Notes under the pieces: generated by a model | What the model was told of the DNA's origin: nothing | The model's input: the letters and a program-made list of their open reading frames with translations, nothing else | The model's database searches: none | NCBI RefSeq assembly: GCF_003789055.1 | Contig: NZ_ML119089.1 | Span: 1-64,000, forward strand | Direction of reading: 5' to 3' | DNA length: 64,000 nt | DNA from: Histidinibacterium lentulum | GTDB lineage: Bacteria; Pseudomonadota; Alphaproteobacteria; Rhodobacterales; Rhodobacteraceae | In this document: piece after piece, positions 47,576-58,643 of the stretch | Layout: every line of letters begins with the position of its first letter | Position numbering within the stretch: the stretch's first letter is position 1 | Made by a program: the position numbers and the translations under genes

Positions 47576-47651
47576 TGGTGCCCCCAGAGAGACTCGAACT
47601 CCCGACCCACTGATTACAAATCAGTTGCTCTACCAGCTGAGCTATAGGGGC
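47576..47651 (-). tRNA. tRNA-Thr(UGU)
   Basis: 76 nt including encoded CCA. Acceptor stem GCCCCTA/TGGGGGC (one T-G pair), D-arm GCTC-AGCTGGTA-GAGC, anticodon stem-loop CTGAT-TTGTAAT-type with anticodon TGT at the loop centre (ACTGATT-TGT-AATCAGT), T-arm with GTTCGAG. The anticodon UGU reads ACA and other Thr codons. No integrase or phage remnant lies next to it. Confidence 0.95.
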
Positions 47652-51934: not shown

Positions 51935-52083
51935 GGTCCAGCCCCTTTCCTCTCAGCGTCAACCCGTCCTGTCGTACCGGGAGATGCCGCAATCGTCACG
52001 CCAGTGCCAGATTGTTGACCGCGGGTCGCCCCGTTCCTACTCTACGGCGTTCGGACTGGAGTTCGGACGGAAGGGCTGCCGAC

Positions 52084-53100
52084 ATGAACGACGACACCGC
52101 GCCGCGCGCCGTGCAGACGTTGCCGGTCTATCGCTGCGACGACTTCCGGGTGATCTCCGGCGTGGCCGAAGGTGATGCGCTCTCGTTCGCCGAGGAACTG
52201 GTGCTCGACGACATCTACGGGCTCCTGCCGGAGGCGCGGCGGGTACGGCTCACGGTCACGATGGGGCCGGACCCCCGCTCTCTGTCCGTGGCGGCAGGAT
52301 GCGAGACGGGCGCGGCGGGCAATCCGGTGGTGCTCGACTGCTGCCTGACCTTCATGGGCGAGGACGGGGCCACCCATGAGGCGCTGGTTCTCGTGGAGGT
52401 GGAGGAGGATGCCGCCGCCGGCATCTACATGCTTCCCCTCGCCTCCTTCGCGATCAAGAGCGGCTACCGCCTCGTCGGCATCGACCGCGACGCCGCCGCG
52501 ACACGGTTCGCCGAAGTCGCCGTGGTGTCGTTCACCCGCGGCACCCACATCACCATGGCCACGGGCGAACAGCGCCCGATCGAGACATTGTCGGTCGGCG
52601 ACCGGGTGCTGACGAGGGACGACGGGCCGCAGGAGATCCGCTGGATCGGGGCGAGCACCCTGCGCGCCACAGGCAGCTTCGCCCCGGTGGTCATCAGCAA
52701 GGGGACGCTCCACAACGAGAACGATCTCGTGGTCTCGCCCGATCACCGCATCTTCGTCTATCAGCGGCAGGACAAGCTCGGCGCGGGCCGCGCCGAGGTG
52801 CTGGTGAAGGTCCGCCATCTCATCAACGGGACCACCGTCTACCAGAAGGACGGGGGGTTCGTGGAATACTTCCAGCTCCTCTTCGACGATCACCAGATCA
52901 TCTATGCCGAGGGCATCGCCGCCGAAAGCCTGATGGTCGATCCCCGGACCCGTGCGGCCCTGCCGCCCGAGGTCATGGCACGGCTCCACTCCGCCGAGCC
53001 GACACACGCCCATCGTCCGTATCTCGATTTCGAGGTGCGCGAGCCGCTGGTCTCGGCCCCCGACGCGGCCGACCTGCTGCGCCGCGCCTCCTCGCACTGA
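52084..53100 (+). CDS. Hint (hedgehog/intein) domain protein with Ser at the usual Cys
   Basis: 338 residues from the ATG of MNDDTAPRAVQTLPVYRCDD; no signal peptide. The first 165 residues are a variable domain; the Hint domain follows at SFTRGTHITMATGEQRPIETL, then SVGDRVLTRDDG, NENDLVVSPDHRIFVYQ and FQLLFDDHQIIYAEGIAAE. In inteins and Hedgehog proteins the first residue of the block is a Cys that starts the N-S acyl shift; here it is Ser. The later SPDH block B-like His is kept. Such stand-alone Hint proteins are abundant in Rhodobacterales and their role is unknown. Confidence 0.85.
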   Translation: MNDDTAPRAVQTLPVYRCDDFRVISGVAEGDALSFAEELVLDDIYGLLPEARRVRLTVTMGPDPRSLSVAAGCETGAAGNPVVLDCCLTFMGEDGATHEALVLVEVEEDAAAGIYMLPLASFAIKSGYRLVGIDRDAAATRFAEVAVVSFTRGTHITMATGEQRPIETLSVGDRVLTRDDGPQEIRWIGASTLRATGSFAPVVISKGTLHNENDLVVSPDHRIFVYQRQDKLGAGRAEVLVKVRHLINGTTVYQKDGGFVEYFQLLFDDHQIIYAEGIAAESLMVDPRTRAALPPEVMARLHSAEPTHAHRPYLDFEVREPLVSAPDAADLLRRASSH

Positions 53101-54534: not shown

Positions 54535-56130
54535 ATGTCGAACCGCCCAGAACTCCCCCCCGAGATCGCCCGTCGCCGGACCTTCGCGATCATCAGCCAT
54601 CCCGACGCCGGCAAGACCACGCTGACGGAGAAGTTCCTGCTGTTCGGCGGGGCGATCCAGCTTGCCGGGCAGGTCCGCGCCAAGGGCGAGGCCCGGCGCA
54701 CGCGCTCGGACTTCATGCAGATGGAAAAGGACCGCGGCATCTCGGTCTCGGCCTCCGCCATGTCCTTCGACTACCGCACCTTCCGCTTCAACCTGGTGGA
54801 CACACCCGGCCATTCGGATTTCTCCGAGGACACTTACCGCACGCTGACCGCCGTGGATGCGGCCGTCATGGTGATCGACGGCGCAAAGGGCGTCGAAAGC
54901 CAGACGCGCAAGCTCTTCGAGGTCTGCCGCCTGCGCGACCTGCCGATCCTGACCTTCTGCAACAAGATGGACCGCGAGAGCCGTGAGGTCTTCGACATCA
55001 TCGACGAGATCCAGGAAAATCTCGCCATCGACGTGACACCCGCCTCCTGGCCCATCGGCATGGGGTCCGATTTCATCGGCTGCTACGACCTCCTGCGGGA
55101 CCGGCTGGAGCTGATGGACCGCGCCGACCGCAACCGCGTGGGCCAGAGCATCGAGATCGACGGCCTCGACGATCCGAAACTGGCGGACCATATCCCCGCT
55201 CATCTTCTCGAAAAGCTGCGCGAGGAGGTGGAGATGGCGCGTGGCCTCCTGCCGCCCCTCGACAGCCAGGCCGTGGCAGACGGAACCATGACCCCGATCT
55301 GGTTCGGCTCCGCAATCAACTCGTTCGGGGTCAAGGAGCTCATGGAGGGCATCGGCGCCTACGGCCCCGAACCCCAGCCGACCCGCGCCGAGCCGCGCCA
55401 GATCGCCCCGGAGGAGCCGCAGGTCGCCGGCTTCGTCTTCAAGGTGCAGGCCAACATGGACCCCAAGCACCGCGACCGCGTGGCCTTCGTCCGCCTCGCT
55501 TCCGGCCATTTCGAGCGCGGCATGAAGCTGACCCATGTGCGCACGAAGAAACCCATGACGATCTCCGCGCCCGTACTCTTTCTCGCCTCCGACCGGGAAC
55601 TCGCCGAAGAGGCATGGGCCGGCGACATCATCGGCATTCCGAACCACGGCCAGCTCCGGATCGGCGACACCCTGACCGAGGGCGAGGCGCTGCGTGTGAC
55701 GGGGATCCCCTCCTTCGCGCCGGAACTGCTCCAGACCGCCCGCGCGGGCGATCCGATGAAGGCCAAACATCTGGAAAAGGCGCTCTTCCAGTTCGCCGAG
55801 GAAGGCGCCGCCAAGGTGTTCAAGCCCGCCTTCGGCTCGGGCTACATCGTCGGCGTCGTGGGCGCGCTGCAATTCGAGGTCCTGGCCAGCCGGATCGAGC
55901 TCGAATACGGCCTGCCCGTCCGCTTCGAGGGCTCGCAGTTCACGTCCGCCCGCTGGGTGGCGGGGCCGAAGGACAAGGTCGAGAGGTTCGTGCAGGCCAA
56001 CAAGGCCCATATCGCCCATGACCACGACGGCGACGTGGTCTATCTCACCCGCCTGCAGTGGGACATCGACCGGATCGAGCGCGACCATCCGGACCTCACC
56101 CTCTCGGCCACCAAGGAAATGATGGTGTGA
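54535..56130 (+). CDS. prfC: Peptide chain release factor 3
   Basis: 531 residues, normal for RF3. GTPase motifs: G1 SHPDAGKTTLTEK, G2 region with DRGISVSASAMSF, G3 DTPGHSDF, G4 NKMD. Domains II and III follow and the end is LSATKEMMV. RF3 removes RF1 and RF2 from the ribosome after termination. The stop overlaps by one base the GTG proposed for the foreign gene that follows; prfC itself is complete to its usual C-terminus. Confidence 0.95.
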   Translation: MSNRPELPPEIARRRTFAIISHPDAGKTTLTEKFLLFGGAIQLAGQVRAKGEARRTRSDFMQMEKDRGISVSASAMSFDYRTFRFNLVDTPGHSDFSEDTYRTLTAVDAAVMVIDGAKGVESQTRKLFEVCRLRDLPILTFCNKMDRESREVFDIIDEIQENLAIDVTPASWPIGMGSDFIGCYDLLRDRLELMDRADRNRVGQSIEIDGLDDPKLADHIPAHLLEKLREEVEMARGLLPPLDSQAVADGTMTPIWFGSAINSFGVKELMEGIGAYGPEPQPTRAEPRQIAPEEPQVAGFVFKVQANMDPKHRDRVAFVRLASGHFERGMKLTHVRTKKPMTISAPVLFLASDRELAEEAWAGDIIGIPNHGQLRIGDTLTEGEALRVTGIPSFAPELLQTARAGDPMKAKHLEKALFQFAEEGAAKVFKPAFGSGYIVGVVGALQFEVLASRIELEYGLPVRFEGSQFTSARWVAGPKDKVERFVQANKAHIAHDHDGDVVYLTRLQWDIDRIERDHPDLTLSATKEMMV

Positions 56131-56819
56131 GCCTGCCTACCCGACTTCAAGGAGACACTTGGAGTTCTTTCAAGCAGGCACTTTTGAGTATGGATGTGCA
56201 GGTCCAGTCTCGGAACGAAGGTCGGACCAACGAGCAAACAGAGTGGTGGATCGTCCGACGAGTGCTCGGGCGACTTAATCCCCCTGGAGGCTTCACAGAT
56301 TCTGTAACTCTTATTCACGGTGACCGCCCCGACTTTACGCTTGAAATTTTCAACAGAATTGTGGGAATTGAGATTTCTGAAATATGCAGTCAGAACTTAG
56401 GAAAGGCAATGGCGCTCTCTGAGCGGCTTGGGCTGCCATACGACCCTCAGCCCTTCATGGAACAAGGTGAGCCTCTGAGTCAAAAGCAGGTCAAGAGTCT
56501 TATGGACGGCGATTACAGAGGTGGATTTCGCGGATTTGAGGCAGAAAGACTATTGATGCGAGAAATAAAGCTTGCCCACAGAAAGAAATGTGAGAAGGTC
56601 AAAAATCATAGAAGATCAGACGAGGAATGGCTCTTCCTTTATGATAACTTCTCCATTCCCGGAACAAGATTTGAAGAGATCAACAAAGATCTTGATGCCG
56701 AATTCAAGAATTCTGATTTTTGCGCGGTTGGAATCATCAGTGGGGATATGTTCTTCCACTGGGAGCCACGAGGGCCAATCTGGCGACGGCTTATCGAATG
56801 CAATTTTCCTCCGGGATAG
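56127..56819 (+). CDS. Low-GC foreign gene, PD-(D/E)XK-like hypothetical protein
   Basis: 230 residues from a GTG that overlaps the prfC stop and has AAGGA upstream; a later ATG (residue 22) is the alternative. Base composition drops sharply at the start of the gene and recovers at about 56825; AT-rich codons such as AAA, ATT and GAA, rare elsewhere, are common. The core reads RPDFTLEIF then VGIEISEI (PDF at about 68-70, Glu at about 82), the spacing of the metal-binding Asp and Glu in PD-(D/E)XK nuclease folds, with Ser where Lys is usual. No family name is recognised. Likely recently acquired; a nuclease or defence role is inference. Confidence 0.65.
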   Translation: MSLPTRLQGDTWSSFKQALLSMDVQVQSRNEGRTNEQTEWWIVRRVLGRLNPPGGFTDSVTLIHGDRPDFTLEIFNRIVGIEISEICSQNLGKAMALSERLGLPYDPQPFMEQGEPLSQKQVKSLMDGDYRGGFRGFEAERLLMREIKLAHRKKCEKVKNHRRSDEEWLFLYDNFSIPGTRFEEINKDLDAEFKNSDFCAVGIISGDMFFHWEPRGPIWRRLIECNFPPG

Positions 56820-57268
56820 CGATCCCTAGGAGTGTGGTCGCGGGGGCGCTCGGCGCGCCAGAGGACAGCCTGCCCCCGGGCGATCTGCCGCTCTCGCGCT
56901 TCGCCGCGCGCTATCTGGCCAGCCTCGCAGCCCCGGAGGCGGAGGACCCGCCCGAGGCCTGGACACAGCACCTCATCCTCGGCCTTGTCCGCGCCCATCC
57001 CCACCTCGCGCTCGCCGCCATCCGCGCCGCGCTCGACCTCGCCCCGGATGCAGACACACTCGCCATGATCGCCGCCGGTCCCCTCGAGGACCTGCTCACG
57101 GATCACGGCGCCACGCTGATCGGCGACATCGAGAGGGCCGCCCCGTCCTGCCCCCGCCTGCGCGACGCCTTGACCGCCGTCCCGGGCCACGACCTAAAGC
57201 CGCTGCTCCGCGCCCGCCTCGAGGCCGCCAGCGTTGTCGAGACGGGCGAGGACGACCCGCCGCGCTGA
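56798..57268 (+). CDS. DUF6869 domain-containing protein, possibly 5'-truncated
   Basis: 156 residues if read from the ATG at 56798, which lies inside the foreign gene; the host-like sequence begins only at about 56828 (VVAGALGAPEDSLPPG), and the GTG at 56834 has poor spacing from AGGAG. The conserved part FAARYLASLA, PEAWTQHLILGLVRAHP, LAAIRAALDLAPDADTL and GPLEDLLTDHG is DUF6869, frequent in Rhodobacterales and of unknown function. Its original start may have been lost when the foreign gene was inserted after prfC. Confidence 0.65.
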   Translation: MQFSSGIAIPRSVVAGALGAPEDSLPPGDLPLSRFAARYLASLAAPEAEDPPEAWTQHLILGLVRAHPHLALAAIRAALDLAPDADTLAMIAAGPLEDLLTDHGATLIGDIERAAPSCPRLRDALTAVPGHDLKPLLRARLEAASVVETGEDDPPR

Positions 57269-57273
57269 GCTCG

Positions 57274-58314
57274 TCAATCCGGCAGCCGGATCGCCGCCGC
57301 GTCGATCAGCTCCTGCATCTTCGCGCGCTTGCCCTCCGCGTCCCGCGTCTCCGCCCGCCGGAGCTTGCGCGCCAGCCGCCGCCGGTAGAGCGCCTGCCGC
57401 ACCTCCTCGGCAAACCGCCAGCGGTACTTCGGATTGGCAAAGCGCCAGTCCTCCGACCGCATCGCGGGCTTCGGCCGCACCTCGGGAAACCGCTCGTCCA
57501 GAAAGCCGCGATACTCCCCGGCGAAGGAGGCGATGTAGGGATGGTCCTGGAGGTTCCACGGCTTGCCGGGTCCCGCGAAATGCAGGACCGCCGGGTCGAA
57601 CTCCGCCACCCAGCGCCCGTTCAGCCATTCCCGCGAACACCAGTTCATCCGCGGATCGAGCGGCAGGATATCGTCCGCGAAGGCAAGGTTCATCGCCCCC
57701 TGGTCCTGGTCCCGGTGCACCGGCAGGAACCGCACGTTCTCCCGAGCCGCCGCGGCAAAACGCCGGGGGCCGTCCATGGCGAGGAACGCCTCGGGCTGAA
57801 ACAGCAGGACGCCCGCATTGTAATACTGCCCCTCCCTGCCCCCCAGATCGCGGATCTTGGCATCCACCCGCGCCTCCCGTCCCGCGCTGTAGGTCACCAG
57901 CCGCTGGAAATCGCTCACCGCCGCCAGCGGCACCTCCCGGTCGATCCCGCCGAAGAGCGCCCCGATCCCCGGTCGCCGCAGATAGGTGTCCGTGTCGAGG
58001 TAAAGCACCGTCCGGTAGCGCCCCGCGAGCGTCGCAGGCAGCGTCCAGCGGTAATAGGTTCCGAAGCTGATCCAGTCCTTGACCATCGGCACCTCGGGCA
58101 GCGCCGCAAGGTCGATCGTCACGAAACGGGCCGGCCCCCGCCGCAGCCAGTCCGGCACGGCCGAGATGTCGGGCATCGCGATCACCACGTCGAACGCATC
58201 GGGCTCCAGCGCGAGGAGGCGCCGCGCGGCGAAGGCGGCGAAGGGCAGATGCCCCATGTCGCAGGCCAGGACGACGGCATCGCCATGCCGCGGCTCTCCG
58301 GTCATGTCCTTCAT
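57274..58314 (-). CDS. Family 8-like glycosyltransferase
   Basis: 346 residues. GT-A fold with VVLACDMGHLPFAAFAARRLL at the N-terminus, the nucleotide-sugar/metal DxD motif in YLDTDTYLRRPG, NAGVLLFQPEAFLA, HRDQDQGAMNLAF and LHFAGPGKPWN, which are GT8 hallmarks (LpsA/glycogenin type, retaining). A basic C-terminal tail (RRRLARKLRRAETRD) could contact the membrane. Likely acts on lipopolysaccharide or another surface glycan. Convergent with the DUF6869 gene, 5 bases apart. Confidence 0.85.
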   Translation of the reverse strand: MKDMTGEPRHGDAVVLACDMGHLPFAAFAARRLLALEPDAFDVVIAMPDISAVPDWLRRGPARFVTIDLAALPEVPMVKDWISFGTYYRWTLPATLAGRYRTVLYLDTDTYLRRPGIGALFGGIDREVPLAAVSDFQRLVTYSAGREARVDAKIRDLGGREGQYYNAGVLLFQPEAFLAMDGPRRFAAAARENVRFLPVHRDQDQGAMNLAFADDILPLDPRMNWCSREWLNGRWVAEFDPAVLHFAGPGKPWNLQDHPYIASFAGEYRGFLDERFPEVRPKPAMRSEDWRFANPKYRWRFAEEVRQALYRRRLARKLRRAETRDAEGKRAKMQELIDAAAIRLPD

Positions 58315-58643
58315 CGCAAAGCCCCCTGCTCAAGCCCCGCCCGATGCCGACCCGGCCCCCGGCCCCTCGGGAGGGCGCCCCCTGTCCGATGCGGCGCGAG
58401 ACATGCCATGTCCGTCGCCTAGTCCCGCCCCGCCCCCATGTCCAGAACCGGCCTCCTCGGCCCGGATGCGGGCCCCGCTGTCCCCAGCGCGCCGCGCTCC
58501 CCCGCCCTCCGCCACGGCTTTCTTGACGCGGCATCCCGTCCGGCGTATGGCGGCCCCGGAACACGGCCCCGGGCAATCCGGCCGGGGGCAGGCCGCGCGG
58601 CGCTGCGGCCAACCATGCCGCAAGCGAACCGTGAAAGGCCCGC
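58315..58643. other. Intergenic region between the GT8 gene and the DEAD-box helicase gene
   Basis: About 330 bases separating divergent genes, so it should hold both promoters. It is GC-rich with no recognisable -35/-10 pair, repeat or small gene. Helicase genes of this type often have long leaders involved in cold regulation, but no structure could be identified here. Confidence 0.4.

Follow-up and report, generated by a model that had tools for sequence, protein, structure and literature searches.

A GC-poor, nuclease-like gene between prfC and DUF6869 in Histidinibacterium lentulum, and its putative place in the PD-(D/E)XK superfamily

The locus and its composition

The window analysed here is the whole stretch of 64,000 nucleotides at the start of Histidinibacterium lentulum contig NZ_ML119089.1. 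Towards its end lies an intact open reading frame, here called P0001, which has as neighbours prfC, a DUF6869 gene, a family 8 glycosyltransferase gene and a DEAD helicase gene. An initial annotation had described a low-GC gene at this place, and its coordinates proved exact. The name prfC is taken from that annotation. The features of the locus are:

54535..56130, forward strand: prfC (release factor 3), the upstream neighbour; its stop overlaps the GTG start of P0001
56127..56819, forward strand: P0001, a lone nuclease-like gene of 230 aa; GTG start on the prfC stop (GTGA)
56133..56818, forward strand: the putative insert (686 bp), which would separate codon 2 from codon 3 of the ancestral DUF6869 gene; placed by eye from the starts in relatives
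56798..57268, forward strand: the DUF6869 gene (PF21746, E 3.7e-18), its original start apparently displaced by the insert

The GC content of the P0001 gene is 0.482 against 0.70 for the whole window, and outside the gene the lowest value is 0.635 when the whole 64 kb is scanned in 693-bp windows with a 21-bp step. GC3 is 0.494, compared with 0.897 for prfC, 0.873 for DUF6869 and 0.928 for the DEAD helicase gene. The sharp shift in composition and codon use that had been noted earlier is thus borne out, and maximum likelihood places the GC-poor segment at 56113-56807, with 2-lnL ranges of 56093-56146 for the left change point and 56755-56842 for the right. A Hint_2-domain gene is also present in the window, at 52012-53100.

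The gene had also been reported to lack flanking integrases, transposases and repeats. In the region 46-64 kb, where 15 genes are likely, the 10 that were scanned include no Pfam integrase or transposase (E <= 1e-5), and Rfam gave no match over 55500-57800. The sole tRNA gene, for tRNA-Thr, is located at 47576-47651, 8.5 kb from P0001. The longest match between the two ends of the gene is 5 nt in direct and 6 nt in inverted orientation. A wider search returned a direct pair of 11 nt (55907 / 56865) and two inverted pairs of 13 nt, all imperfect and with arms that flank the gene; none of these is at the junctions, and we take them to be due to chance. The marks of a transposon- or integrase-borne element, which are a recombinase (sought over 46-64 kb), terminal repeats and a target duplication, were not seen.

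The prfC-DUF6869 junction in relatives

The gap between prfC and DUF6869 could be compared among genomes of the same family, as had been proposed at the outset. Ten of 253 family genomes were seen to carry DUF6869, a count that includes the window genome. In seven of the nine other carriers it stands immediately after prfC (adjacency at reverse-strand loci being read from coordinates). In one of the remaining two (G971) about 1.2 kb of other, high-GC DNA separates the two genes, and in the other (G073) there is no prfC close by. An opposite-strand, acetyltransferase-like reading frame can be seen by eye in the 1.2-kb spacer.

The starts of DUF6869 in relatives allow the insertion site to be placed almost to the base. 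In genomes of four other genera, a GTG on the prfC stop (GTGA) offers a start for DUF6869, giving the N-termini V-S-S-I-P-R (G050), V-T-P-L-P-P (G046 and G016) and V-S-A-I-P-R (G976). In the window, the left junction reads GTG-AGC, and the right junction continues GCG-ATC-CCT (A-I-P). From these readings we infer an insert of 686 bp that follows codon 2 of DUF6869 and extends from 56133 to 56818, and both ends agree with the GC change points, falling inside their 2-lnL ranges. The earlier placement of the insertion at the end of prfC therefore holds in that the gene adjoins and overlaps the prfC stop, but the comparison would put the insertion itself two codons into DUF6869.

Because the insert would lie two codons inside DUF6869, the P0001 gene would use the GTG start of DUF6869. 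P0001 would then be read from the same GTG that overlaps the prfC stop in relatives, and would probably be co-expressed with prfC, while translation of DUF6869 would start anew within the tail of the inserted gene, probably at ATG 56798. Such coupled capture of a start codon suggests a route by which a promoterless foreign gene could be expressed immediately. The papers found on prfC as an insertion hotspot deal mostly with SXT/R391 ICEs.

The four congeners all have prfC, at 83-85% identity, and the P0001 gene is absent behind it in each of them by DNA and protein comparison (the best match, at E 0.48, being at chance level). DUF6869 was not found behind prfC in these four genomes either, and the content downstream of prfC varies among them. 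As a separate observation, none of the four shows a DNA match to the stretch from prfC to the DEAD helicase gene (56131-58515). Presence of the gene at normal GC in all relatives, which would have counted against the initial annotation, is not seen in those examined. Horizontal insertion of the P0001 gene is well supported.

Family, conserved residues and predicted fold

Searches of Pfam, NCBIfam, PADLOC, PHROGs and the PDB sequences gave nothing significant for the P0001 protein; its best library matches are at chance level, e.g., DUF2787 at E 0.054. A search with the protein itself gave hits in 2 of 198 family genomes (its own and a distant partial match in G029) and in 3 of 385 class genomes (its own, G401 and G540). 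Profile searches extended the class count to 4 of 385 by adding G512, and returned 3 of 240 genomes in another set (G401, G267 and G423) and 2 of 398 in a further one (the window genome and G898, later dropped). Plasmid searches brought in members from Massilia, Pseudomonas nitroreducens, Shewanella baltica and Dyella, and the Shewanella protein, when compared with plasmids, matched only itself. A first scan of genome contigs yielded no relative; a second yielded three loci, encoding the G401 protein, a Sneathiella protein that is the same as that of G540, and a protein of a Deltaproteobacteria MAG. No family relative was found among viral contigs or phages. Three matches were dropped before counting: a Cupriavidus plasmid match in two unannotated pieces (H7/L030), a Pseudomonas fluorescens match at E 0.9 and 23% coverage (H3), and the partial G898 match (L047, E 3.6e-5). 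In all, 11 relatives were read, from proteobacterial genomes and plasmids, and the family is sparse and unlisted in the libraries searched.

Three of these relatives, G512, G423 and G267, form a distant branch with a C-terminal DUF29 domain, which is a PF01724 match in G512 and is assigned by likeness in the other two. In pairwise comparison the window protein is only marginally similar to this branch (E 0.002 and 0.015). The nuclease-like part of the family has no name in PADLOC, NCBIfam or PHROGs (10 members scanned), and two profiles found no match among PDB sequences that would name it. In Pfam it is unmatched in seven members, i.e., six of alignment A1 including the window protein, plus G512.

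The motif PDF-x9-GIEIS, which had been pointed out in the initial annotation as the arrangement of a nuclease core, is present in P0001 as P68 D69 F70 ... G80 I81 E82 I83 S84. Among 10 aligned sequences R33, E39, P68, D69, G80, E82, K154, L169 and N174 are invariant. When G267 and G423 are added, R33, E39, P68, D69, E82, K154 and L169 are kept in all 12 members, G80 in 11 and N174 in 10; both of these proteins lack the D-N pair that follows strand 4, the Gly of GxE is missing from G423, and the Dyella protein has Gln at E85. For Dyella, alignment A8 uses the sequence from 8001 onwards, which begins ahead of the annotated start (8121), and G029 and G512 were trimmed to the nuclease-like part. 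The family signature can be written R-x5-E, PD[FLI], ExxE, K and, usually, NWLxIYDN. The codons of the four candidate active-site residues, all invariant in the alignments, are:

56241..56243, forward strand: E39, in the motif I helix
56331..56333, forward strand: D69, motif II (PD)
56370..56372, forward strand: E82, motif III, with S84 at the usual place of Lys
56586..56588, forward strand: K154, located in the helix that follows strand 3 (motif IV); candidate for a migrated catalytic Lys

Every member has the motif I Glu and the motif II and III acidic residues that are expected of a PD-(D/E)XK protein. The Ser at the usual Lys, to which attention had been drawn earlier, turns out to be typical of the family, where this position holds Ser, Thr, Val or Ile; a Lys in the following helix accounts for it, and the invariant K154 fits such a migrated lysine. 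There are precedents for this arrangement: a 2007 survey (PMC1913061) describes DUF506, DUF790 and DUF1626 as families whose motif III Lys has migrated into the helix of motif IV, and DUF1626 often has Thr in motif III. These families resemble P0001 in having acidic motifs II and III, no motif III Lys and a basic residue in the next helix, and they differ from it in that the nuclease-like part of the P0001 family gave no Pfam match in the seven members scanned and has a signature of its own.

Structure models were built for the window protein and for its G401 relative, each from four sequences, with pLDDT values of 52 (low) and 71.6 (moderate). Both models have the same order of elements, namely a helix (E39), a strand, a strand with D69 at its start, a third strand that carries E82, a long helix with K154, and a fourth strand. 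Foldseek found no match at E <= 0.001 for either model. In VIA-align, acetyl-CoA carboxylase and PA4535 of Pseudomonas aeruginosa (1y0k) tied at Z 8.1 for the window model, and acetyl-CoA carboxylase was first at Z 9.5 for the G401 model, with PA4535 at Z 7.7. PA4535, which we take to be DUF1780, has the top VIA score outside acetyl-CoA carboxylase with both models (150 aligned residues and rmsd 4.1 for the window protein, 145 and 4.5 for the relative), and it ranks first in Foldseek for the G401 model and 14th for the window model. The identity is 10-16%, the Foldseek E is 0.04 at best, and it was missed by the PDB profile search. We judge from the conservation of the motifs together with the modelled order of elements that P0001 likely belongs to the PD-(D/E)XK superfamily. 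The nuclease-like core proposed earlier is accordingly upheld by the residues and by the element order of the predicted structure, but the fold matches are weak and the models are of limited confidence.

Genomic contexts and possible roles

Among the five non-plasmid members of the main branch, four have a GC content below that of both flanks and stand behind a housekeeping gene. They are:

window member: GC 0.48, flanks 0.68-0.70; follows prfC, with overlap
G401 member: GC 0.46, flanks 0.55
Sneathiella member: GC 0.43, flanks 0.58-0.59
Deltaproteobacteria MAG member: GC 0.46, flanks 0.61-0.65

The latter three follow pntB (at 41 nt), an acyl-CoA dehydrogenase gene (98 nt) and thiG (171-276 nt, depending on the start chosen, this member ending on the thiH reading frame); the names of these upstream genes are our own reading. 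The fifth, G029 (L016:3860-4825, reverse strand), lies on a contig of 7 kb and has a GC content of 0.50, with flanks of 0.54 and 0.47. It carries an N-terminally fused helix-turn-helix domain, presumably HigA-like, and adjoins a methylase-Mrr fusion and an IS1595-type transposase. The plasmid members as a group are not GC-poor. The Shewanella member is close to AbiD and SieB, the Massilia member (L017) has next to it PDC-S39 (a candidate system in PADLOC), an integrase and a P4-family primase, and annotated integrases are close to the Massilia, Pseudomonas and Dyella members. PADLOC matched three of 10 plasmid-neighbour proteins, one of them weakly, a count that has no matched control beside it. 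No neighbour gene recurs beside the main-branch members examined.

In the DUF29 branch, G512 (L045:2801-3895, reverse strand) and G423 (L072, reverse strand), from genomes of different families, have the nuclease-like gene with DUF29 fitted tightly between gltD and gltB, as we read these two genes. The two proteins are 49% identical to each other, compared with 67% for gltD and for gltB, and in being less alike than their flanking genes they fit vertical descent better than recent spread. Such retention suggests that some members of the family serve their host lastingly. In relatives within the G512 family, matches to gltD are weak and mostly partial (39-46% identity at best), and no insert-free site is demonstrable. 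No literature was found that joins DUF29 with a nuclease.

We favour, with rather more confidence than doubt, the view that P0001 is a horizontally acquired lone gene of an undescribed PD-(D/E)XK family, with a start coupled to prfC, and that it is likely an accessory nuclease directed against foreign DNA. Sequence comparison shows directly that the composition is foreign, that relatives lack the gene, and that a family with conserved residues exists. Under this view E39, D69 and E82 would bind metal, K154 would stand in for the motif III Lys whose place S84 holds, and the protein would cleave DNA in a metal-dependent manner. The active-site prediction is clean and testable, in a family that is unnamed in the libraries searched. 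Judged by what lies near two of the plasmid members, defence appears the most likely role, and P0001 may perhaps be described as a putative defensive DNA nuclease. The initial suggestion of defence or restriction cargo is made plausible by these neighbours, but there is no convincing PADLOC match and no adjacent methylase: in PADLOC-DB 2.0.0 the window protein had no match and 10 members gave one at chance level (E 0.015), and no methylase of a type II restriction-modification system was found among the ten reading frames scanned in 46-64 kb. The two DUF29-fused relatives at gltD-gltB, with their signs of vertical retention, are also unlike fast-turnover defence genes. A parallel may be drawn with the Rpn nuclease proteins, which are likewise PD-(D/E)XK-type single genes and for which an anti-phage role has been reported (PMC10327210).

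Other readings of the family are less probable. It is unlikely, to begin with the fold, that P0001 is a nuclease-fold protein that has given up catalysis and whose function is to bind DNA or a protein, as a regulator might. The missing motif III Lys, the helix-turn-helix domain of one member and the DUF29 domain of others would all suit a binding protein, but a dead active site would be unusual where E39, D69, E82 and K154 persist in 12 of 12 divergent members. The same residues, at the positions expected for motifs I to IV, speak against an unrelated alpha/beta fold with look-alike motifs, as do some 25 of the 50 VIA rows for the G401 model, which we take to be PD-(D/E)XK proteins beside 15 acetyl-CoA carboxylase entries and 10 others. 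The top Z of the acetyl-CoA carboxylase central domains (9.5) and the want of anything significant in Foldseek would suit such an unrelated fold, which is the least probable of the alternatives. That P0001 is a toxin or abortive-infection nuclease, on its own or with DUF6869 as its immunity protein, is very doubtful: the two genes adjoin and overlap in the window and one member has an antitoxin-type helix-turn-helix fusion, but no second gene recurs beside other members, and DUF6869 has a high GC content and sits behind prfC in relatives that have no nuclease. DUF6869 therefore did not arrive together with P0001, and is ruled out as a co-arriving partner.

Free-standing homing endonucleases are single genes that occupy a conserved site and need no integrase, and P0001 resembles them in this respect. 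A homing-like nuclease would cut insert-free prfC-DUF6869 alleles and be copied in as these are repaired from an occupied allele, and the idea could be extended to the sister proteins at other junctions with no call for an integrase or repeats. The single-gene insertion with neither junction repeats nor a nearby recombinase, the four GC-poor members (0.43-0.48 against 0.55-0.70) behind housekeeping genes, and the two DUF29-fused relatives at gltD-gltB are in keeping with such a mechanism. However, unlike in homing endonucleases, no repeated use of one site is seen in the main branch, where no two members share a site; the divergence at gltD-gltB fits vertical descent and not recent spread; G029 is next to an IS element and is not GC-poor relative to both flanks; and the plasmid members are close to integrases or defence genes. 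We consider homing quite unlikely on this evidence. A bolder generalization, of a family of bare-gene nucleases with a migrated Lys that enter the junctions of housekeeping operons, can capture start codons and persist by cutting gene-free alleles, strikes us as very unlikely.

There is, finally, an observation on DUF6869, a protein on which no literature was found. In eight of the nine other carrier genomes of the family its gene lies behind prfC, either directly or within 1.2 kb, which suggests a functional link with release factor 3.
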